Source of the DNA: Aliirhizobium smilacinae
Lineage (GTDB): Bacteria; Pseudomonadota; Alphaproteobacteria; Rhizobiales; Rhizobiaceae
Length of the DNA: 64,000 nt
Assembly: GCF_006335145.1 (NCBI RefSeq)
Contig: NZ_VDMN01000002.1
Location: forward strand, 310,001-374,000
Reading direction: 5' to 3'
How positions within the stretch are numbered: the first letter of the stretch is position 1; each line of letters starts with the position of its first letter. A model generated the notes under the pieces. The model made no database searches, was not told the DNA's origin, and saw nothing but the letters and a program-made list of their open reading frames with translations. The position numbers were made by a program, and so were the translations under genes. Of the stretch, positions 30,172-40,959 are shown piece by piece.

Positions 30172-31596
30172 ATGGGTGACTTGCCTATACTTGCTGTGGA
30201 TCTCGATAAGACGCTCATAAAAGGCGATCTCCTTTACGAATCCTTTTGGGAGTGCGCGTCAAAAGATCTTTGGGCGCTCTTGCAGGTAGTTGGCTCGCTC
30301 ACGGCTGGAAAAGCGCGATTTAAGGCAAATCTGGCGCGAAATACTGCGATCGATCCGGCTTTGCTCGCCTATAACAACAGTGTTCTGGAGTACATAAAGG
30401 AATGGCGCGAGCGAGGTGGCAGGGCAGTTCTCGTCACCGCCACGGATCAGTCAATCGCCAATGCTACAGCGCATCATCTTGGGCTTTTCGATGAGGTTTA
30501 TGGCTCGGACGGCACGCGCAATTTGAAAGGACGCGTGAAGGCGGGTTTCCTCGTCGAACGTTATGGTGCGGGCAATTACGACTATATCGGCGATGCGCAT
30601 GCAGACATTCCAGTGTGGAATTCGGCTCGACGAGCCATCACCGTTGGGCTCTCACCGAAGGATAGAGGACAAGTCCATTCGCTTAGCGGCGAGGTCATGC
30701 ATCTTTCTGACCCGGAATATAGCAGACTATCCTATCTCAACGCCATTCGACCGCATCAGTGGTCGAAGAACATACTTGTCTTTCTGCCTCTTATCGCGGC
30801 CCACGAGGCGTCGATATACGTCTGGGTTGAAGCACTTTTCGCTTTCTTCTGCTTCAGTCTTGTCGCGTCGAGCGTTTACGTGCTGAACGATTTGCTGGAT
30901 CTCTCCACTGATCGAATTCATCCCAGGAAGCGCAATCGGCCCTTTGCCTCCGGCGCGGTTTCATTGCAACACGGGACATTGATGGTACCTGCCTTGCTGT
31001 TGGCAGGATTGCTGTTCGGGCTTGGGGCCCAGCAACCGCAATTCCTATTAATCATGGCTTTGTATTACGCCACCACGATGATCTATTCCGTCTGCCTGAA
31101 GCGTAAGCTCATCGTCGATATCTGCGCGCTGGCCGGTCTCTATACGCTGCGGATCTTCGCTGGCGGAGCCGCGACTGGATTGCCGATCTCGGAATGGCTG
31201 CTGGCATTCTCGATCTTCTTCTTCTTCTCGCTCGCCGCCGTCAAACGGCAGGGGGAACTGGTCGACGTCGTCAAATCCGGGCGGGGCAAAGCCAATGGCC
31301 GGGGCTACGAAGGTGAAGATCAACTCGTTGTGTCGATGATGGCTCTCAGCTCCGGCTACATCGCAGTCTTGGTTCTTGCGCTTTACCTCGATTCCCCTGC
31401 GGTCCAGGAGCTTTACAACCATCCGGCTCGCCTCTGGGGCATCTGCCTTATCCTACTCTATTGGGTCAGCCGAATGGTCATGATGGCCCATCGCGGCATA
31501 ATGGACGACGACCCGATTGTTTTTGCGATGAAAGATCGGGTCAGCCGCTATTGCGGCGTTCTCATCCTGATCGTCATCATTGCAGGGATTATGTGA
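30172..31596 (+). CDS. HAD phosphatase-UbiA prenyltransferase fusion, decaprenyl-phosphate phosphoribosyltransferase-like
   Basis: 474 residues. Residues about 1-185 form an HAD-type phosphatase (VDLDKTLIKGD, VTATDQS, YIGDAHADIP). Residues about 195-474 form a UbiA-type membrane transferase with eight or nine helices, NDLLDLSTDRIHP (Mg-diphosphate motif) and LRIFAGGAATGLPISEW, strikingly like mycobacterial Rv3806c. Inferred reactions: transfer of phosphoribose from PRPP to polyprenyl phosphate by UbiA, then removal of the 5-phosphate by HAD, giving the substrate of the DprE1/DprE2-like enzymes downstream. Strong ribosome site. First gene of the group. Confidence 0.88.
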   Translation: MGDLPILAVDLDKTLIKGDLLYESFWECASKDLWALLQVVGSLTAGKARFKANLARNTAIDPALLAYNNSVLEYIKEWRERGGRAVLVTATDQSIANATAHHLGLFDEVYGSDGTRNLKGRVKAGFLVERYGAGNYDYIGDAHADIPVWNSARRAITVGLSPKDRGQVHSLSGEVMHLSDPEYSRLSYLNAIRPHQWSKNILVFLPLIAAHEASIYVWVEALFAFFCFSLVASSVYVLNDLLDLSTDRIHPRKRNRPFASGAVSLQHGTLMVPALLLAGLLFGLGAQQPQFLLIMALYYATTMIYSVCLKRKLIVDICALAGLYTLRIFAGGAATGLPISEWLLAFSIFFFFSLAAVKRQGELVDVVKSGRGKANGRGYEGEDQLVVSMMALSSGYIAVLVLALYLDSPAVQELYNHPARLWGICLILLYWVSRMVMMAHRGIMDDDPIVFAMKDRVSRYCGVLILIVIIAGIM

Positions 31597-31732
31597 GCCC
31601 ATGCCTGAAGCGTCAGCGCACTTTCTAGATGTTCCCAAAGCAACCAGCTCAGATCACGTCTGCCCACCCGGAAAAACGGAGCTTCCTTCAGTCTTGGCGA
31701 AGATCCGTTGTCTTGTTGGATGGACTTGAACC

Positions 31733-32143
31733 ATGCTGCAGCTGATAGTTCGCTACGCTCTTTTCGCCGTCGTTGCGACACTGGTCAATCTGTTGACACA
31801 ACGCACGTTACTCGCCGTGTGGAGCGACGGATGGGGTTTCTCGCTGGCGATGTTGACAGGCACGGCAACCGGCCTCCTCACCAAATACGCCTTGGATAAG
31901 AGGTGGATTTTTCTCGATAATGCGGCCGGACGTGGAGTAGAAAGCCGCAAGTTTGGCCTTTATACGCTCACCGGCGTCGTCACGACGCTTATCTTCTGGG
32001 GAACAGAGACTGCGTTCTGGCTCACATGGAACACAAATCAGGCACGGGAACTTGGCGCTGTTATTGGCCTGACGATCGGATATTGGGTCAAATACAATCT
32101 TGATCGCAGGTTTGTCTTCCCCTCTCGCAAAGTGGAGGTTTGA
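31733..32143 (+). CDS. GtrA-family small membrane protein
   Basis: 136 residues with four transmembrane helices and the GtrA pattern (RYALFAVVATLVNLLTQR; TKYALDKRWIF; IGYWVKYNLDRRFVF). GtrA proteins are thought to help move polyprenyl-linked sugars across the membrane; a GtrA protein (Rv3789) also sits beside dprE1-dprE2 in Mycobacterium. Three bases separate it from the DprE1-like gene. A gap of about 135 bases lies before it. Confidence 0.88.
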   Translation: MLQLIVRYALFAVVATLVNLLTQRTLLAVWSDGWGFSLAMLTGTATGLLTKYALDKRWIFLDNAAGRGVESRKFGLYTLTGVVTTLIFWGTETAFWLTWNTNQARELGAVIGLTIGYWVKYNLDRRFVFPSRKVEV

Positions 32144-32146
32144 CCA

Positions 32147-33469
32147 ATGGAGATCTCCGGCTGGGGGCGCTTCCCGAAGGCCGACTGCCGTATCAGCTTT
32201 CCTCATGACGAAACATCATTACGTGAACTTATTCTTTCCGGGCCATGTATCGCTCGCGGTAACGGGCGCGCCTATGGTGACAGCGCCCTCAATCAAACGC
32301 TCACAATCGATCTGACCGGTTTCAACCGAATGATTGCGTTCGACCCCACGTCCGGTGTGCTAACGGTCGAGGCTGGTGTCATTCTCGGCGATATTATCGA
32401 GGCAGTCCTGCCCCGCGGCTGGTTCCCGTCCGTGACACCAGGCACAAAATTCGTGACGATCGGGGGTATGATAGCGACCGACGTTCACGGAAAAAACCAT
32501 CACAAGCACGGATCTTTCGGAAGTTTTGTTGAGTGGATAGACCTCATGATCGCCGACGGCAGCGTGCTACGCTGTTCGCGAACAGAAAATCCGGATCTTT
32601 TTGCCTTCACCATCGGTGGCATGGGTCTGACTGGGATCATCCTGCGCGCAGCCATCCGGCTAACCCCAGTGGAAAGCGGCTGGATAAGGCAGATGACGGT
32701 CCCCGCCCGCTGTCTTGAACATGCGATCGAAATATTTGAACGATCCGTAGATTGGACCTATTCGGTCGCCTGGATCGATTGCCTCGCACCAAAAAAAATG
32801 CTCGGGCGATCTTCCGTCATACTGGGTGAACACGCCAGGTATGACGAGCTTGGCGACCGGCAAAGGGCTGTCCCATATCCTGGCACCGTCACGCGCAAGC
32901 GGCGTGTATCGTTCGACGCGCCCCAATTCGCACTGAATCGCTTTTCGGTCCGCGCTTTCAACGCAGTCTATTACGCAAGGGGGCGCCACAATGCCGGCGA
33001 CAGCTTTGTCGAATGGGACAGATACTTCTATCCACTCGATGCAATTCTCGGATGGAACCGGATCTATGGAAGGCGTGGCTTTGCGCAATTCCAATGTGTG
33101 CTTCCACTTTCTACAACCACCAAAGGGATCACAGAATTACTGGAAGCGACCGCTTATGCCGGCCAGGGATCGTTTCTTGCTGTGCTGAAACGGATGGGCG
33201 CGCAGGAAAGCCGGTTTTCATTCCCGATGGAAGGGTACACGCTGGCCCTCGACTTTCCCGCCAATACGGCCAGCCTTGCGCTGATGCAGAAGCTCGACGC
33301 GATCACCGTTGCCCATGGCGGCCGCTTCTACCTTGCCAAGGATGCGCGCATGAGCAGCACAACGCTTGAGGCGGCCGATCCCCGCCTCTCCGCCTTCCGC
33401 GAGATGCGTCGCGCTTCCGGTGCCGCAGCCAGCTTCTTTTCGCTTCAATCCAAAAGACTTTCACTTTGA
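32147..33469 (+). CDS. dprE1: DprE1-like FAD-dependent polyprenyl-phosphoribose 2'-oxidase
   Basis: 440 residues. FAD-binding PCMH part: GNGRAYGDSALN, VTPGTKFVTIGGMIATDVHGKNHHKHGSFG, FTIGGMGLTGII, all nearly identical in pattern to mycobacterial DprE1 ([21 protein letters not shown]). C-terminal part has YTLALDFPAN and FYLAKDARMS. The enzyme oxidises polyprenyl-phospho-ribose to the 2-keto form, the first half of epimerisation to D-arabinose. The Cys targeted by covalent DprE1 inhibitors could not be placed by eye. Confidence 0.9.
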   Translation: MEISGWGRFPKADCRISFPHDETSLRELILSGPCIARGNGRAYGDSALNQTLTIDLTGFNRMIAFDPTSGVLTVEAGVILGDIIEAVLPRGWFPSVTPGTKFVTIGGMIATDVHGKNHHKHGSFGSFVEWIDLMIADGSVLRCSRTENPDLFAFTIGGMGLTGIILRAAIRLTPVESGWIRQMTVPARCLEHAIEIFERSVDWTYSVAWIDCLAPKKMLGRSSVILGEHARYDELGDRQRAVPYPGTVTRKRRVSFDAPQFALNRFSVRAFNAVYYARGRHNAGDSFVEWDRYFYPLDAILGWNRIYGRRGFAQFQCVLPLSTTTKGITELLEATAYAGQGSFLAVLKRMGAQESRFSFPMEGYTLALDFPANTASLALMQKLDAITVAHGGRFYLAKDARMSSTTLEAADPRLSAFREMRRASGAAASFFSLQSKRLSL

Positions 33470-33506
33470 ACCTCTCCGCGGTTCATCAACGAAAGGGTCA
33501 TAAACA

Positions 33507-34253
33507 ATGCTTGGGAAAAGAAAGTCCCTGCTGGTCGTCGGTGGTACGTCCGATATTGCGAAAGCGACAGCGATCACTTTCGCCAGAAAGGGCTGGAATG
33601 TGACGATCAGCGGACGAGATCTCACTATTGCCCAGGCGGAAGCCGCCAATCTTGAGATACGCACGCCCGGAAGCACCATCACGGCCGTCGCGCTCGACGT
33701 TCTAGACACCGCCAGCTTCGGGCCGCTTCTTGGCAGCTTGTCCGCGCTACCAGATGCCGTTCTGTTGGCGGTGGGATTGCTGGGAGACCAGGTACAGGCT
33801 CAGCGTAATACAGATCATGCCGAACTCATTATGCGCTCGAACTTCGAAGGGCCGTGTCTCCTGTTAGGATTGATTGCATCGCGATTTGAGGAGCGGGGTT
33901 CAGGCACAATTATCGGGATTTCGTCCGTGGCCGGCGATCGCGGCCGTGCCTCCAACTATGTCTATGGTGCTGCCAAAGCCGGTTTGACGGCATTTCTCTC
34001 CGGGCTACGTAACCGACTGGCCGCGAACGGCGTTCATGTGCTGACTGTCAAACCAGGCTTCGTGCGGACGCGGATGACGGCGGGCATGAAACTTCCAATG
34101 GCGTTGACTGCCGAGCCGCAAGAGCTTGGCAAAGCCATCTATGACGCAGTGGAAAAGCGCAAGAATGTCATCTATGTACGTCCTGCATGGCGCCTCGTCA
34201 TGACGATCATCCAGTCAATCCCTGAAAACTTGTTCAAGAAACTGAGTCTCTAG
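33507..34253 (+). CDS. dprE2: DprE2-like SDR, polyprenyl-phospho-2-ketoribose reductase
   Basis: 248 residues, classical short-chain dehydrogenase: cofactor loop VVGGTSDIAKA, catalytic SVAG...YVYGAAKAG (Tyr-x3-Lys), PGFVRTRM. It completes conversion of the ketone to polyprenyl-phospho-arabinose with the DprE1-like partner 37 bases upstream. The hydrophobic C-terminus (about 225-248) suggests membrane association, as in DprE2. End of the group; the next gene is convergent. Confidence 0.9.
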   Translation: MLGKRKSLLVVGGTSDIAKATAITFARKGWNVTISGRDLTIAQAEAANLEIRTPGSTITAVALDVLDTASFGPLLGSLSALPDAVLLAVGLLGDQVQAQRNTDHAELIMRSNFEGPCLLLGLIASRFEERGSGTIIGISSVAGDRGRASNYVYGAAKAGLTAFLSGLRNRLAANGVHVLTVKPGFVRTRMTAGMKLPMALTAEPQELGKAIYDAVEKRKNVIYVRPAWRLVMTIIQSIPENLFKKLSL

Positions 34254-34444: not shown

Positions 34445-37400
34445 TTACTCCTCGGCAGCGACGACGATGCGAAGGAGAACGGGCAAAGAGGTCGACCCCG
34501 TGCGACGCATGATCGACGCGCGGTGATTTTCCACTGTTCGCTGACTGATCTTCATTTCCGCAGCGATGATCTTATTGGGTTGGCCACGTAAAATGCGATC
34601 CAAGATCTGGCGCTGCCGTGTTGTCAGAACGCTGAGAGTCTTTCTGGCAGCGTCACGTCGTTCGGAACGTTCGTTGATACTGCGGGACGAAAGCAAGGCT
34701 TTTCGAACGCTCAGCTGGATCTCTTGTGAAGAAAACGGCTTTTCGACGAAATCAACCGCGCCGCGTTTCATGGCCTCGACCGCCATGTGCACGTCGCTGT
34801 GCCCGGTCACGATAATCATCGGAAACCGATGGTGCTTTTCCCTAAGTGTGCTCAAAAGCTCAAGGCCACTCATACCCGGCAGATGGGCATCAATCAGCAG
34901 GCAGCTTGCCCGGTCAGGATCATATCCTGCCAGATACTCTTCCGCCGAGATGTAGGCTATGACGGACCAAACGCCGTCACCAAAAAAGACCTGGATGCTG
35001 TCTCTTACTCCTGAGTCGTCGTCAATAATCTCGACCAGCGTGCAAACGCCGCTTTCAACCGAAACAGGGTCGCCTAGGGTCTTCAAATCTCGGACGTAAG
35101 TCTGCAAGCCGTCTACCGCACTCACGATATCATTGAGCTTCGCCGGCTTGTTCAAATGTTTGACTTTGTGCTGCGCGCATTTGCGCAATGTATTGCTGGA
35201 GATGTCGCCCGTCAGGATCAGCGCAGGGGCTGCGTGGCCCAAAAGACCACGAATATTTGTGATCGCCGTGATCCCGTCCATTCCCGGATGCAGATTGAGG
35301 TCGGCGAGAATTATGTCCGGGACGAACTCTGCGTTTTGCACGAGACTGATGGCCTGGGAGCCATTTGCCGCTGCCGCCACGACATAACCAGCCTGTTCCA
35401 ATCCCATCTCCAGAAGATCGCGCATCCCGTCCTCATCCTCGATCACGAGTATGGAAGCGCTCGGGGCACTCGGAGTTTCACGCGTCGTCTGAGGTAGCGA
35501 CACACGTGGACTTCCCACAAGCGACGTATTGATCTCGACCGAAAAAACCGACCCTCTTCCAGATGTCGAGCGAACGGATACGTCAAGACCAGTCAAATCG
35601 CTTAGCCTCTTAACAATTGAAAGGCCAAGTCCCAGCCCGTATTCTCTGCCTTCATGGCTCACGTCGACCCGATGGTATTCGTCGAAAACGTTGTCGATCT
35701 GATTTTCGGGGATGCCAATTCCAGTGTCCCACACCTGCAATTTGAGCTTCTCGCCCCTGCGCCGGCAACCGACCAGGACCCGGCCTTTCAGCGTGTACTT
35801 CAACGCATTGGACAAGAGGTTGCGGATGATCTGTTCCAGAAGACGGGGATCGGTATAAACCAAAAGCTGGCAAGGGACGACCCGCAGCTCCAATCCCTTT
35901 GCTCTGGCCTGGTAAGAAAATTCCCGCTCCAGCCGCGCGAGAATGTCATTTAAAGGAAAAATTTCGAGGTGGGGATGCACAATGCCGGCTTCAATCTGGT
36001 TGATATCCAGTACGGTGTTCAGGATGCCCGACATCGAGGCTAGCGTTTCCTCCATGCGCTTGACGAAAATGCGCGACTGAGGGTCTTCTGCGCTTTTTTC
36101 CAAAAGCCCATGGAGAAGTTTCAATGTCTGCAGAGGCTGTCGCAAGTCATGGCTTGCGGCTGTCAGAAATTTTGACTTGGCTTCCGTCGCAAGCTCCGCT
36201 GCTCTCTTTGCAGACTCTCGGCTCTCGGCGATTTGTTTCTGGACACTCATGTCAATGAAGGTGATCACCACACCCTCAATACCGCCTTGCTTCATGCGGT
36301 AAGGCTTGATCCGGCGAATATACCAGCGGCCGTCGCGTGCCGCAGTTTCCTTGTCGACCGAACCGCCGGTTTCGAGAACTGTGATTGCGTCTGTCCACAA
36401 ACTAATGTCGTCAGCCAACGGGCTCAGGTCAGAAAACGGCCGACCAACATCTGAGGGCAAGATGTTGAAGAGCGATCGCATTGCGGGTGTGAAAAACCGG
36501 ATTTTAAGCGCTACGTCGAGAAAGAGCATCGGAACGTCGGTGCTGAAAAGAACATTCTCGAGGTCGTTGAAGATGGACTGCTGGCGCTCCAATGTTTCGT
36601 GCAGCTGGCTATTCAGAGACGTCAACTCCTCATTCAGCGACTGCAACTCTTCCTTGGAGGTTATGAGCTCCTCGTTTGTCGACTGATACTCTTCATTAAG
36701 CGACAGTGCTTCAGCAGTGATAATCTTATGCTCTCGCCCGGCAATTTCTAGGCCACGGATGGCATCATGCAGTTCGGTACGGGTCTCCTCCAACTCGAGC
36801 TCGACCATGCGTGCGGTATCGGTGCTGCCACTTGCCTGAGGAGACGCCGATCCACGCCGGGGCAGTTCCTCGATAAAGCATATCAGGAACAGCTCCTTAT
36901 TGTGGTCGGAAAGAGGATCGACATCGATGCTGAACTGCAACTCGACGCCGTCAACTTCTATTTTTGCGCCGCGGACCACAAACCTTTTATCGTCCCGGGC
37001 AGCACGATGGACTGCCGAGCGGATCTTATTGTGCAGGGACTTTGGCGTGATGGCATAAAGGCTGTGGGATGCGGGACCGGGGGCAAACTGAAGAAATTTC
37101 TCGGTCGGACCGATTGAGTAAAGATATTCACATTGGCGATTGATCAGAATAGCCGCGGGGATATGTCGGTCGAGCAAAGCCTGTGAAACGATATCGCCCA
37201 GCCTGTCCTGCTTTTCAGCCTTGCCCACCTTGCCAAGCAATGCCGTAACCAGGGAATTATTGATAGAGGTCATCTTGAAATGAAGATCGTCGGCAATGTG
37301 GCCTCCGAGCCGACGATAAACACGCTCGGTTTTGGAAATAAGCTTAAAGCGATCTTCCATTCCACCAACGGTTTCGGACTTCCCGATAAGCAACACACCA

Positions 37401-38719
37401 TTTTCGCGCAGCGTAAAATTAAACAAGGCGAGTACCTCGTCCTGGGCATCTGGCTCCAAATAAATCAACAGATTACGGCAGGAAACGAGGTCCATGCTGG
37501 AAAAAGGCGGGTCGCTCAAGACGTTGTGGACGGCAAAAATAACGCTCGCACGAAGTTCGGCCACAACGCTGTAACCGGAATCAGTGCGGATAAAATAGTC
37601 CTTGAGAAGCTGAGGCGGAACAGTCTGGACCGCAGAGACCGGATAGGCCCCTTGCCTCGCAATGGCGATGGCGTCGGGATCGGCATCCGAACCGAATACC
37701 TGGAATTTGACCGACAGTCCTAGAGATTTGATATGGTGGAGAAAAAGCATAGCGATCGAGTAGGCTTCCTCGCCGGTGCTGCAGCCTGCAACCCATATTC
37801 TCACCGTATCGTCACTGAGCCTGCCTCGCATGAGGTCGGGGATGATGCGTGAACGAAGAAAATCGAAAACTGTGATGTCACGGAAGAACTCCGTGACATT
37901 GATCAGAAGGTCGTTTGCGAGGTACCGTCGTTCTTCTTCGCTATTGTTGAGCACATTGAGATATTGCTCTGGCTGGTCTGCAGAAATGCCGAGAATGGTG
38001 AGGCGTTTTTCGATACGGCGCTGCAGGGTGCCGTGTTTGTAAGACGAAAAGTCGTTCGGGGTGGAGCGTCTCAACAACTCAATGATCCGCGGCAGGAGTT
38101 CTGCTTTTTTTCGGTCAAGCATACCTGAAGGACTATTGGCGGCTGACGGCAAGTAACCGATGATTGCTTCGGCAATGCCTACGATCGGAAGGACGACAGC
38201 GCCCGCGGCAGCGGCGATTGCGCTCCGCGGCATCCCTTCGAATTCAGCTTCTTCTGGGTCTTGCACTAAGACCAGTCCACCAGCAGCCTTGATGATGCCT
38301 GCCGTGATCGAGCCGTCAGATCCGGTCCCCGACAGAATGACCGAGATTGCCCTGAAGCCGTATTCTTTTGCCACAGACCGCATTAGGAAATCGAATGGAA
38401 GCGGCACTCCACGCCGCTCCGGGTCCCGACTCAGACGAATTTTCTGTGCCTCGACGGACATGTAGACGCCGGGAGGTATGACATACACGTGTTCGGGCTT
38501 CAGATCGGCACCATTGACTGCCTGAACGACCTTCAAGGTGGTGACGTCAGCCACCAATTCGGCAATCATGCTCTCCTGTGCAGGGTGAAGATGCTGCACA
38601 AGCAGGAAAGCACATCCGGTGCGGGCAGGCAGTTCCCGCAGAAGTGCTCTTGTCGCGCTGAGGCCGCCCGATGAGGCACCAATTCCCACAACCTTGAAGT
38701 CGGTGTTTGCCTCTGGCAT
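34445..38719 (-). CDS. CheB-CheR-PAS-histidine kinase-REC-REC-LuxR fusion
   Basis: About 1424 residues. In order: CheB methylesterase (about 10-190; GIGASSGG, VQHLHP, GTGSDGS), CheR methyltransferase (about 215-480; NVTEFFRD, GCSTGEEAYSIAM, SCRNLLIYL), a coiled coil (about 640-740; NEEYQSTNEELITSKEEL), PAS (about 745-850), HisKA (HDLRQPLQTLK, about 870-940), ATPase (NLLSNALKYT, DTGIGIPENQ, GLGLGLSIV), receiver 1 (Asp in ILADLNL, Lys in LNKPAKL), receiver 2 (Asp in LLIDAHLPG, Lys in VEKPFSS) and a FixJ/LuxR DNA-binding domain (about 1360-1424). All key residues seem present. No chemoreceptor or flagellar gene is nearby. ATG at 38719 is preferred to a GTG three codons earlier. Confidence 0.92.
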   Translation of the reverse strand: MPEANTDFKVVGIGASSGGLSATRALLRELPARTGCAFLLVQHLHPAQESMIAELVADVTTLKVVQAVNGADLKPEHVYVIPPGVYMSVEAQKIRLSRDPERRGVPLPFDFLMRSVAKEYGFRAISVILSGTGSDGSITAGIIKAAGGLVLVQDPEEAEFEGMPRSAIAAAAGAVVLPIVGIAEAIIGYLPSAANSPSGMLDRKKAELLPRIIELLRRSTPNDFSSYKHGTLQRRIEKRLTILGISADQPEQYLNVLNNSEEERRYLANDLLINVTEFFRDITVFDFLRSRIIPDLMRGRLSDDTVRIWVAGCSTGEEAYSIAMLFLHHIKSLGLSVKFQVFGSDADPDAIAIARQGAYPVSAVQTVPPQLLKDYFIRTDSGYSVVAELRASVIFAVHNVLSDPPFSSMDLVSCRNLLIYLEPDAQDEVLALFNFTLRENGVLLIGKSETVGGMEDRFKLISKTERVYRRLGGHIADDLHFKMTSINNSLVTALLGKVGKAEKQDRLGDIVSQALLDRHIPAAILINRQCEYLYSIGPTEKFLQFAPGPASHSLYAITPKSLHNKIRSAVHRAARDDKRFVVRGAKIEVDGVELQFSIDVDPLSDHNKELFLICFIEELPRRGSASPQASGSTDTARMVELELEETRTELHDAIRGLEIAGREHKIITAEALSLNEEYQSTNEELITSKEELQSLNEELTSLNSQLHETLERQQSIFNDLENVLFSTDVPMLFLDVALKIRFFTPAMRSLFNILPSDVGRPFSDLSPLADDISLWTDAITVLETGGSVDKETAARDGRWYIRRIKPYRMKQGGIEGVVITFIDMSVQKQIAESRESAKRAAELATEAKSKFLTAASHDLRQPLQTLKLLHGLLEKSAEDPQSRIFVKRMEETLASMSGILNTVLDINQIEAGIVHPHLEIFPLNDILARLEREFSYQARAKGLELRVVPCQLLVYTDPRLLEQIIRNLLSNALKYTLKGRVLVGCRRRGEKLKLQVWDTGIGIPENQIDNVFDEYHRVDVSHEGREYGLGLGLSIVKRLSDLTGLDVSVRSTSGRGSVFSVEINTSLVGSPRVSLPQTTRETPSAPSASILVIEDEDGMRDLLEMGLEQAGYVVAAAANGSQAISLVQNAEFVPDIILADLNLHPGMDGITAITNIRGLLGHAAPALILTGDISSNTLRKCAQHKVKHLNKPAKLNDIVSAVDGLQTYVRDLKTLGDPVSVESGVCTLVEIIDDDSGVRDSIQVFFGDGVWSVIAYISAEEYLAGYDPDRASCLLIDAHLPGMSGLELLSTLREKHHRFPMIIVTGHSDVHMAVEAMKRGAVDFVEKPFSSQEIQLSVRKALLSSRSINERSERRDAARKTLSVLTTRQRQILDRILRGQPNKIIAAEMKISQRTVENHRASIMRRTGSTSLPVLLRIVVAAEE

Positions 38720-39021
38720 TGTTTTCACGTGAGCGTTTTACCGGTTTCCCCGAGCCAGCATCTTCCACATTGAGGCGCGTGCCGACCATATCCATAGACC
38801 GACAGAACGACCCCTTGCGACCGAGGACCGACGCGGCAGGCACCTTGAAACGTCGTGCAAATCATATTGCTGTAGGTTGTCGTCTCGGGCCGGCTATCCG
38901 GCTCTTCTCGCGCATGTTACCGCCCCGCGATCCTGCGGTTTATATGCGCTTAAGGTGTATCGTATCGAGACAATATAAGTCATAGGGATAATTGTCGACG
39001 TAGATTTCTAAAATATACTAA

Positions 39022-39038
39022 TTTTTGCACTGCAAAAA
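39022..39038. repeat. 17-bp near-perfect palindrome, candidate operator
   Basis: TTTTTGCA and TGCAAAAA flank a single C, an exact dyad of eight bases per arm, about 320 bases ahead of the first LuxR-type gene. It could be a binding site for a dimeric regulator. No terminator features: no transcript is expected to end here. Confidence 0.45.
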
Positions 39039-39109: not shown

Positions 39110-39127
39110 TACTACTCCATCGTAGTA
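39110..39127. repeat. 6-bp inverted repeat TACTAC/GTAGTA
   Basis: Arms TACTAC and GTAGTA separated by six bases, 72 bases right of the larger palindrome. Short enough to be chance; listed because both lie in the same AT-rich regulatory stretch. Confidence 0.3.
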
Positions 39128-39345
39128 TCACATTGTCGCAGGCGCTTAAGAAATTATGACGTGGCGCGGTGGCGGGACCAGGTTTCGGCGGGAGGGGTAC
39201 TCGCCCGAAATGCAGGATATCATTCGAATGTCCTTACTTCATGCGCACAAGCACTCTCAATTTGGGGGATCAGAACAGGCGAACTGAAACGGATCGGTTA
39301 AGCTGACGAGCATCTCGGGGCTGCGATCCAATGGGGGAGAAAAAA

Positions 39346-40089
39346 ATGTCCGTCGCCATCACAACATATAGTCAGACCCCGGCTCCGACCGAATTCGGCT
39401 CGCTGGTCAATTCTCAAGCGCAAATAGCGCCGCGACCTGAGAAGGATCCGCGGAAATTGGCCATTATCGATGATCGCGCCCTGGATCGCGAATGCCTGGC
39501 ACGAAGTCTTGTTGCCCATGGCCTCGATATGTCAGTCGACGTATTTTCATCCATCGACAGCTGGAGGAAGGCCTTCAGCCCGCGTCACGCAGGTATACTC
39601 ATCAACATTGGGCACGGCGACTTCCACAACGACACATTCCTTCATGATCTACAGAATTTGATCAAGGATTTTCCGGCCGTATATGTGGTCATTCTCGCTG
39701 ACAACCGCGACCTTCGCCAGGTTTTGCGGGCCTTTGAAGTGGGTGTTCAAGGCTATATCTCTTCCGCGATAGGGTTGACGGTCTGCGTCAGCGCCATTTC
39801 GCTGGCTTTGGCCGGAGGCGCATTCATTTCCGCTGAGACCCTTGATGACCTTCCGCAACTTATGGCCATAGCAGAGAAACGTGAACGTCACCGCGCAGCC
39901 ATGTTCACCCAGCGCGAGGCGGATGTAATTGACGCACTGAGCCACGGCAAACCGAACAAGATCATTGCCTACGAGCTCACGCTTCGCGAAAGCACAGTAA
40001 AAGTCCATATCCGCAATATCATGAAGAAACTGAACGCGAAAAACCGCACTGAAGTTATCTTCAAGATATCTGACATGTATCAACATTGA
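39346..40089 (+). CDS. LuxR-family regulator with pseudo-receiver domain (first of a pair)
   Basis: About 247 residues: N-terminal receiver-like domain (about 35-150) and LuxR helix-turn-helix (about 180-245; FTQREADVIDALSHGKPNKIIAYEL, ESTVKVHIRNIMKKL). The receiver keeps the acidic pair (AIIDDRALDREC) but the phospho-acceptor position reads Asn in ILINIGHGD and the conserved Lys is Ser in GYISSA, so ordinary phosphorylation is unlikely. ATG at 39346 has GGGGGAG six bases upstream. It may be a ligand- or protein-controlled regulator of the exopolysaccharide genes downstream (inference). Confidence 0.85.
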   Translation: MSVAITTYSQTPAPTEFGSLVNSQAQIAPRPEKDPRKLAIIDDRALDRECLARSLVAHGLDMSVDVFSSIDSWRKAFSPRHAGILINIGHGDFHNDTFLHDLQNLIKDFPAVYVVILADNRDLRQVLRAFEVGVQGYISSAIGLTVCVSAISLALAGGAFISAETLDDLPQLMAIAEKRERHRAAMFTQREADVIDALSHGKPNKIIAYELTLRESTVKVHIRNIMKKLNAKNRTEVIFKISDMYQH

Positions 40090-40257
40090 AGCCGGCAATG
40101 GCCCTCCCCCACTGATAGTATCCCGTTCCATCACCGAATGGTTTGTCTTCAAGATGAAGGATGCCGCAAGCCGGGTTGATGGGAAGCGTCCATGACCACT
40201 TCCGGATCAGAAAGAAAACTCGATTGATTGTCGGTGCAGCGTTAGAGGAGTAATCCG

Positions 40258-40959
40258 ATGATGATGAAAGACGATAATGCTTCTCATCAGGCAGAATTCG
40301 GCCCAGGCTTTCATGCAGACGGGGGTTACGTCGCCCTGATTGACCGGCGGACGCTGGAGCGGGAATGCTTGGCCCACAGTCTGGGATCTCATCACATAAG
40401 CCGACGTATTCTGACCTTCGCCCACTTGCGCGATTGGGAGGCCTCGAAGGATAGCATCGGTTTGCCAGCCGTGGTCCTGTTTTATGCCGTCCACGTGCGG
40501 GACGAAGCGACGAGCGAGATTGCCCAGGTGGTAACTGCCGTCTCGCCAGCCGCTGTCGTGGTCATGTCAGATGATGAGAACGTTGGTGCAGTCCTCGACT
40601 TTATTGCCCTGGGCGCGAGAGGCTACCTACCAAACTCTGTCAGCATCGACATCTGCATTCAGGCCATCAGCCTTGCAATCGCCGGCGGCCGGTTCATCCC
40701 TGCAAGCAGCCTGTTGAACATCGGCAATGTGCTTGGCCTGACATCCCACAAGCCTTTGTCTGCGGTGAAGTTCACGCGCCGTCAGTTCGCCATTGCCGAG
40801 GCACTGCGATGTGGCAAGGGCAACAAGGATATAGCCTCGGAACTCAACCTGTGCGAAAGCACAATTAAGGTCCATGTTCGCAACATCATGCGGAAGCTCG
40901 GGGCGACTAATCGTACCGAAGTGGCCTACAAGCTCGGTGACATTGTGTGCGAACGATAG
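40258..40959 (+). CDS. LuxR-family regulator with pseudo-receiver domain (second of a pair)
   Basis: 233 residues, paralogous to the preceding gene: shared layout around RTLERECLAHSL, GARGYLPNSVSIDICIQAISLAIAGG and the helix-turn-helix FTRRQFAIAEALRCGKGNKDIASELNLCESTIKVHVRNIMRKL (by position about 165-225). The phospho site is lost (VVLFYAVH) and the Lys is replaced by Pro. A good site GAGGAG precedes the ATG. It lies 250 bases upstream of the exopolysaccharide export gene, the same direction, so control of that operon is plausible. Confidence 0.85.
   Translation: MMMKDDNASHQAEFGPGFHADGGYVALIDRRTLERECLAHSLGSHHISRRILTFAHLRDWEASKDSIGLPAVVLFYAVHVRDEATSEIAQVVTAVSPAAVVVMSDDENVGAVLDFIALGARGYLPNSVSIDICIQAISLAIAGGRFIPASSLLNIGNVLGLTSHKPLSAVKFTRRQFAIAEALRCGKGNKDIASELNLCESTIKVHVRNIMRKLGATNRTEVAYKLGDIVCER

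Follow-up and report, generated by a model that had tools for sequence, protein, structure and literature searches.

Hybrid kinases of the CheB/CheR-PAS type, which annotation labels 'chemotaxis protein CheB' or 'CheR family methyltransferase', occur widely among sequenced genomes, and we found no explanation of their methylation substrate. They stop at the kinase or at a receiver (REC) domain. Here we describe a gene of Aliirhizobium smilacinae whose product shares with them, and with members of the group in the same genome and genus, the CheB-CheR-PAS-helix-PAS front and the tandem Glu pairs, and adds a further REC and a LuxR domain. The gene lies in a stretch of 64,000 nucleotides (the window; positions 310,001 to 374,000 of NZ_VDMN01000002.1), which is a portion of contig 2; the genome measures 6.0 Mb. 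By sequence the protein reads as a putative hybrid kinase of this kind: PAS and HisKA/HATPase domains are joined in it to CheB and CheR, both of which carry catalytic residues.

Three other described systems resemble parts of the protein. Methyl-accepting chemotaxis proteins (MCPs), together with CheR and CheB, have the same helical segment with heptad-spaced Glx-Glx pairs between small residues; a methylation consensus for them is quoted in the accessible part of PMC8396549. The window protein differs from them in having no PF00015 MCP signalling domain among its Pfam matches and in carrying a HisKA-type kinase in its own chain in place of CheA/CheW, so it may work like an MCP but is not one. 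FixL-FixJ shares the FixJ-like REC2-LuxR part, whereas here kinase and regulator form one chain that also holds CheB, CheR and an extra receiver. The kinase-REC1 part scores 333.8 bits against NF041832, the NahK/ErcS-type hybrid kinases, below the cut-off of 400, and the front and back ends are unlike theirs. Four-step phosphorelay hybrid kinases have an HPt domain between receivers, whereas the Pfam scan of the fusion protein gave no HPt match there or elsewhere in the chain. Among the open-access literature matches listed (subscription journals lay mostly outside their scope) there is no account of this architecture, its substrate or self-methylation. 'cheBR fusion' appears as a table footnote in the accessible part of PMC8396549, and the protein is not described in the parts available of PMC2964678, PMC8396549, PMC2577667, PMC5907407, PMC3447774, PMC8921679, PMC9239204, PMC2829493, PMC8694187 and PMC7390727.

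The gene is an intact open frame of 1427 codons that encodes, in order, CheB-CheR-PAS1-helix-PAS2-HisKA-HATPase-REC1-REC2-LuxR, in an apparently cytoplasmic protein:

34445..38728, minus strand: whole fusion gene, 1427 aa, GTG start (ATG at 38719)
38162..38689, minus strand: CheB methylesterase, residues 14-189, with no receiver domain preceding it (Pfam; S19/H46/D138 present)
37325..38089, minus strand: CheR_N and CheR methyltransferase, residues 214-468 (Pfam; best solved relative 5ftw)
36854..37216, minus strand: PAS1 (PAS-like), residues ~505-625, no Pfam match (AlphaFold2 fold)
36545..36814, minus strand: single long helix linking both PAS domains, residues 639-728 (AlphaFold2 model of residues 206-852)
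36617..36703, minus strand: candidate methylation segment, residues 676-704, four tandem [ST]xxEExx[ST] units (sequence)
36248..36562, minus strand: second PAS, PAS_10, residues 723-827 (Pfam)
35528..36181, minus strand: HisKA and HATPase_c kinase core, residues 850-1067, with His860 (Pfam)
35108..35461, minus strand: receiver 1, residues ~1090-1207, with Asp1143 (Pfam match; bounds from our own alignment)
34706..35032, minus strand: receiver 2, residues 1233-1341, with Asp1280, FixJ-like (Pfam, FixJ comparison)
34466..34633, minus strand: LuxR/GerE DNA-binding domain, residues 1366-1421 (Pfam)

All Pfam matches of the protein exceed the gathering score, with bounds of 214-249 for CheR_N, 277-468 for CheR, 850-915 for HisKA and 960-1067 for HATPase_c. 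CheB retains S19, H46 and D138, CheR retains FFRD-CS-GEE-D-CRN-Y, and the kinase and receivers retain His860, Asp1143 and Asp1280, and Lys1194 and Lys1330, all of which we take to be catalytic positions. An earlier note on this DNA had proposed that all these domains stand in one chain with their key residues, and the intact frame, the Pfam matches and the residues bear this out; the domains it named are all found, but its list missed the PAS-like fold at ~505-625 and the helix at 639-728. The start that it gave, 38719, does correspond to an ATG that is kept in the three nearest relatives, but this lies three codons inside the frame, which opens at the GTG at 38728.

The PAS1 region (505-625) is modelled by AlphaFold2 with a mean predicted local distance difference test score (pLDDT) of 86.8, and the eight matches of the model to the PDB listed at E<=0.001 are all PAS/sensory-box proteins with modest TM-scores; a sequence-profile search of solved structures with this region gave no convincing match. 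In the model of residues 206-852 (mean pLDDT 82.6), residues 639-728 form one unbroken helix of 90 residues, the first few of which are modelled with low confidence. Glu-Glu pairs recur along it every seven residues, and the core four (679/680, 686/687, 693/694 and 700/701) sit between small residues at heptad spacing, resembling the methylation helices of chemoreceptors. A screen of 1783 frames (minimum length 100 aa) of the window and 26 loci, which contain the fusion family by construction, gave 16 with runs of at least three tandem units, each defined as [ASTG]xx[EQ][EQ]xx[ASTG]. Judged by length, all 16 are CheR-bearing members of that family, the window's frame among them.

The core pairs are inherited together with an intact CheR. 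Our sample held 69 distinct frames in which PAS, kinase, REC2 and LuxR were all matched, the window's included, taken from whole-genome searches with the full protein or residues 640-1427 and from fetched plasmid matches (eleven of 27 records were fetched and ten counted; L209 missed the domain filter; L numbers are our labels for loci). The 80 loci found by linker patterns (L036-L115) were excluded, because a first reading of linker conservation on them was biased. Three frames at contig edges (L124, L146, L150) and 5'-truncated L155 were also set aside, all four of which keep four pairs. In the remaining 65 rows CheR is intact in 49 (including frameshifted L134 and split L127, where CheB-CheR occupies the adjacent upstream frame), absent in 14 and degenerate in two (L141, L165). 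Scored on a gapped alignment, the four core pairs are all Glx-Glx in 48/49 CheR-intact rows versus 0/16 rows with CheR absent or degenerate (Fisher p 2.6e-14, with the kinship of rows ignored).

CheR state changes at least 12 times on a tree of the kinase-to-LuxR columns, built by a quick method with the linker columns excluded. Several rows without CheR stand beside CheR-bearing ones: L014/L208 by L011, L015 by L010/L012, L118/L119 by L210, L207/L226/L227 by L171/L172, L162 by L215 and L156 by L150/L196. L141, with its degenerate CheR, nests by L186, while L126, L142, L144, L159 and L165 are less closely placed. For nine independent contrasts on starred branches, 200 random pairings were drawn. 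Nearly every pairing had all nine going in the expected direction; in a few pairings eight agreed and one showed no difference (median p 0.004, range 0.004-0.008). In a small replicate outside the fusion family (58 genomes searched), all seven CheR-bearing PAS_10 frames have 4-7 units; of three PAS_10 matches whose 1.5 kb flank shows no CheR, two score 0 and 1, and the third, L267, has no domain match to score. Another nine CheB/CheR proteins or fragments from the genus carry 3-7 units.

Because CheR and a helix with receptor-like Glu pairs are co-inherited within one chain, intramolecular methylation is our leading hypothesis. We think it rather probable, judging from these sequence patterns, that the two enzymes methylate and demethylate their own signalling helix, which would make the protein a one-chain adapting sensor, kinase and transcription factor. 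Signals at both PAS domains would bend or twist the 90-residue helix and so set HisKA/HATPase activity; CheR would methylate, and CheB demethylate and possibly deamidate, the Glu pairs, either within one chain or between the two chains of a dimer, and methylation would reset the kinase as in a chemoreceptor. The kinase would then phosphorylate the FixJ-like receiver 2, which would control the LuxR domain, with receiver 1 probably tuning or draining phosphate. In this branch of the Rhizobiaceae the likely targets would be the adjoining exopolysaccharide genes, the gene's own divergent promoter, or both. Since CheB has no receiver in front, any feedback would have to come from the chain's own receivers.

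If the target is the helix of the same chain, this would be chemotaxis-type adaptation without receptors, CheA or CheW that acts directly on transcription, and a compact module for the study and engineering of adaptation, testable on one purified protein. We would give about an even chance to a wider proposal, namely that the protein is a transcription factor with an intramolecular methylation memory, so that expression tracks the change of a signal and not its level, and that CheR, CheB and the Glu pairs form a portable module that is kept or lost whole across bacteria.

The Glu pairs might instead belong to a rigid coiled-coil spacer for the bulky CheB-CheR head, with CheB and CheR serving a structural or ligand-sensing role and the helix left unmethylated. 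Loss of CheR is often joined by loss of the head and by changes to the linker or its shortening (L015, L118, L207, L226, L227), and constraint on the whole linker may relax together. We nevertheless consider the spacer doubtful. CheR catalytic residues are intact in 47/47 one-frame CheR rows. L014, L208 and L119 keep the Leu core while Lys, Gly, Arg, Ala or His appear in their pairs, and over the seven CheR-absent rows that match the helix profile (L014, L015, L118, L119, L144, L156 and L208, picked after the fact) the Leu core is kept at 24/28 sites and the pairs at 12/28. The CheB triad also decays after loss of CheR: S/H/D are kept in 44 of 45 readable one-frame CheR rows, with L191 the exception, and are damaged in four of the six CheR-less rows that have CheB (L156, L207, L226 and L227), which amount to two lineages, three of the four rows being Shinella. 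Decay is not general, because His860 and Asp1143 are kept in 16/16 and Asp1280 in 15/16 of the CheR-less or degenerate rows; kinase, receiver and LuxR residues are mostly retained there. In L211 and L217 the N-terminal part of CheB sits in another frame.

Several observations weigh against intramolecular methylation. L155, in which half of a 5'-truncated CheR is left, keeps all four pairs, and scoring it as CheR-less changes the count to 1/17 rows and the contrasts to a mean of 8.7 of 9. Three pairs are kept in L118 and L144, both without CheR, and L191 has an intact CheR with a degenerate CheB and an Asp at one pair site. L014 and L208 retain the CheB triad without CheR, and the clearest changes of kinase or receiver residues are those of L126, L141 and L165. 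Several losses of CheR took away a large part of the linker or put other sequence in its place, and there the pairs left with the segment. The placement of domains in the AlphaFold2 model of residues 206-852 is uncertain (predicted template-modelling score 0.46).

In the Shinella plasmid loci L207, L226 and L227 a decayed CheB is kept while CheR and the linker helix are gone. L191 (4923-9425, minus strand) has lost all three CheB catalytic residues beside an intact CheR, and one of its pairs is Asp-Glu.

CheB and CheR could also act in trans on the chemoreceptors of the cell, coupling chemotaxis adaptation to transcription, and the genome does hold 26 PF00015 matches. The nearest on the window's contig lies ~365 kb away; the earlier note had remarked on the lack of any chemoreceptor close by as a methylation target, which is correct as to position, but the evidence points to a substrate inside the protein. 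Among the 26 receptor frames, chosen by a rough motif and in a few cases by length alone, eight have two tandem units and two have three, including L256 with GASEEMSATSEELASQAEELQA. By our own count 12/26 end in W-x-x-F. The window CheR aligns best with 5ftw, presumably B. subtilis CheR, and has no counterpart of a four-residue stretch found in 1af7 and 1bc5, which we take to be Salmonella CheR; we assume that this stretch lies in the pentapeptide-binding part of that enzyme. According to the available part of PMC7390727, features of that CheR subdomain separate pentapeptide-dependent from pentapeptide-independent enzymes. Action on the receptors would leave unexplained why the in-chain pairs follow the loss of CheR, and we hold it to be quite improbable. 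These features of the window CheR and the distance to any receptor fit a substrate in the same chain, short of proof.

That an assembly error or frameshift joined neighbouring genes has almost no probability left: stops or frameshifts do split some relatives (L176/L127, L183/L134, L065, L073), but it is refuted by full-length matches at 45-82% identity in seven others of the 57 genus genomes, our own included in that number (L007-L013), by plasmid records described as complete, and by a pattern-based scan of named genomes in which a single frame spans all the domains at 41 of the best 80 loci. Neither ground for refutation named in the earlier note, a frameshift that joined two genes or homologues that are always split, applies.

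The whole-chain loci among the best 80 are mostly from Alphaproteobacteria, with a few from Burkholderiales; the remaining 39 loci include plain CheB/CheR kinases, cuts at contig edges and split frames. The genus itself has exceptions: L014 is without CheR, L015 is without CheB and CheR, and one copy is split across two contigs. A query of residues 640-1427 matched 11/394 family genomes (E<=1e-140), 21/397 order genomes and 17/385 class genomes (both E<=1e-120), with our own genome included in each, and 27 of 72,556 plasmid records (E<=1e-100), 13 of which carry the commonest label, 'chemotaxis protein CheB'. The architecture is thus widespread and mainly alphaproteobacterial, yet patchy; relatives carry the same fusion, it is not unusual, and we dropped rarity as a point of interest. 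At L112 (4059-8041) a CheB-CheR-PAS frame without kinase is overlapped by a separate LuxR-domain frame, possibly a split version. L228 is a full-length gene on Acidiphilium cryptum pACRY01, a plasmid classed as mobilizable, and has numerous transposase genes around it.

At the output end, REC2-LuxR matches the FixJ structure 5xso (E 2.3e-35), and a REC followed by a GerE/LuxR helix-turn-helix is the NarL/FixJ arrangement. The score against the NCBIfam FixJ equivalog, 207.4 bits, falls under the cut-off of 255, so this part is FixJ-like and not FixJ. Because no HPt domain was matched, we favour a direct transfer from His860 to Asp1280, with receiver 1 as a putative modulator. A FixJ-like REC-LuxR makes direct signalling to DNA plausible, but to call the protein a complete relay, as had been suggested, overstates the case, as no HPt was matched between the receivers.

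The divergent promoter region and the genes beyond it hold four further features:

39331..40089, plus strand: divergent LuxR-type regulator, conserved neighbour (receiver-like N-terminal part, no obvious phospho-Asp by eye)
40258..40959, plus strand: second LuxR-type regulator (close match in the three nearest relatives only, 12 loci compared)
39110..39127, no strand: palindrome TACTAC-N6-GTAGTA, candidate operator, divergent promoter region
39022..39037, no strand: palindrome TTTTTGC-N3-GCAAAA, candidate operator, divergent promoter region

Both palindromes are perfect, occur once each in the window and are kept in three close relatives, except that one relative has one mismatch in one of the two. 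Beyond the four close relatives we found none within three mismatches, save weak matches in L052 and L167. The fusion gene, with or without CheR, and a homologue of the LuxR gene at 39331-40089 diverge from each other at 11 of the 12 Rhizobiaceae loci compared, and the twelfth, L225, has no divergent LuxR neighbour. Both N-terminal parts of the tandem LuxR-type regulators at 39331-40959 are receiver-like and, by eye, have no phospho-acceptor Asp.

Polysaccharide export and flippase-like genes come after the divergent LuxR genes in the window. The loci of Agrobacterium pusense (with CheR) and Neorhizobium petrolearium (without) are surrounded by rfbC, flippase, pyruvyl transferase and glycosyltransferase genes, and two Shinella loci without CheR (L207, L227) by nucleotide-sugar and glycosyltransferase genes. 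The fusion protein probably regulates the neighbouring exopolysaccharide cluster. In the wider clade, four of five annotated loci adjoin stress or metabolism genes (for example universal stress proteins, Dps, PRC-barrel, alcohol dehydrogenase or oleate hydratase), and the fifth is the Acidiphilium copy amid transposases.

Beside the fusion gene, close relatives L222, L223 and L036 have no match to the window's row of UbiA/HAD, GtrA, FAD_binding_4 and SDR genes at 30172-34253, which may be an insertion in this genome. To our eye the row resembles what we assume to be a DprE1/DprE2-type decaprenyl-arabinose pathway.

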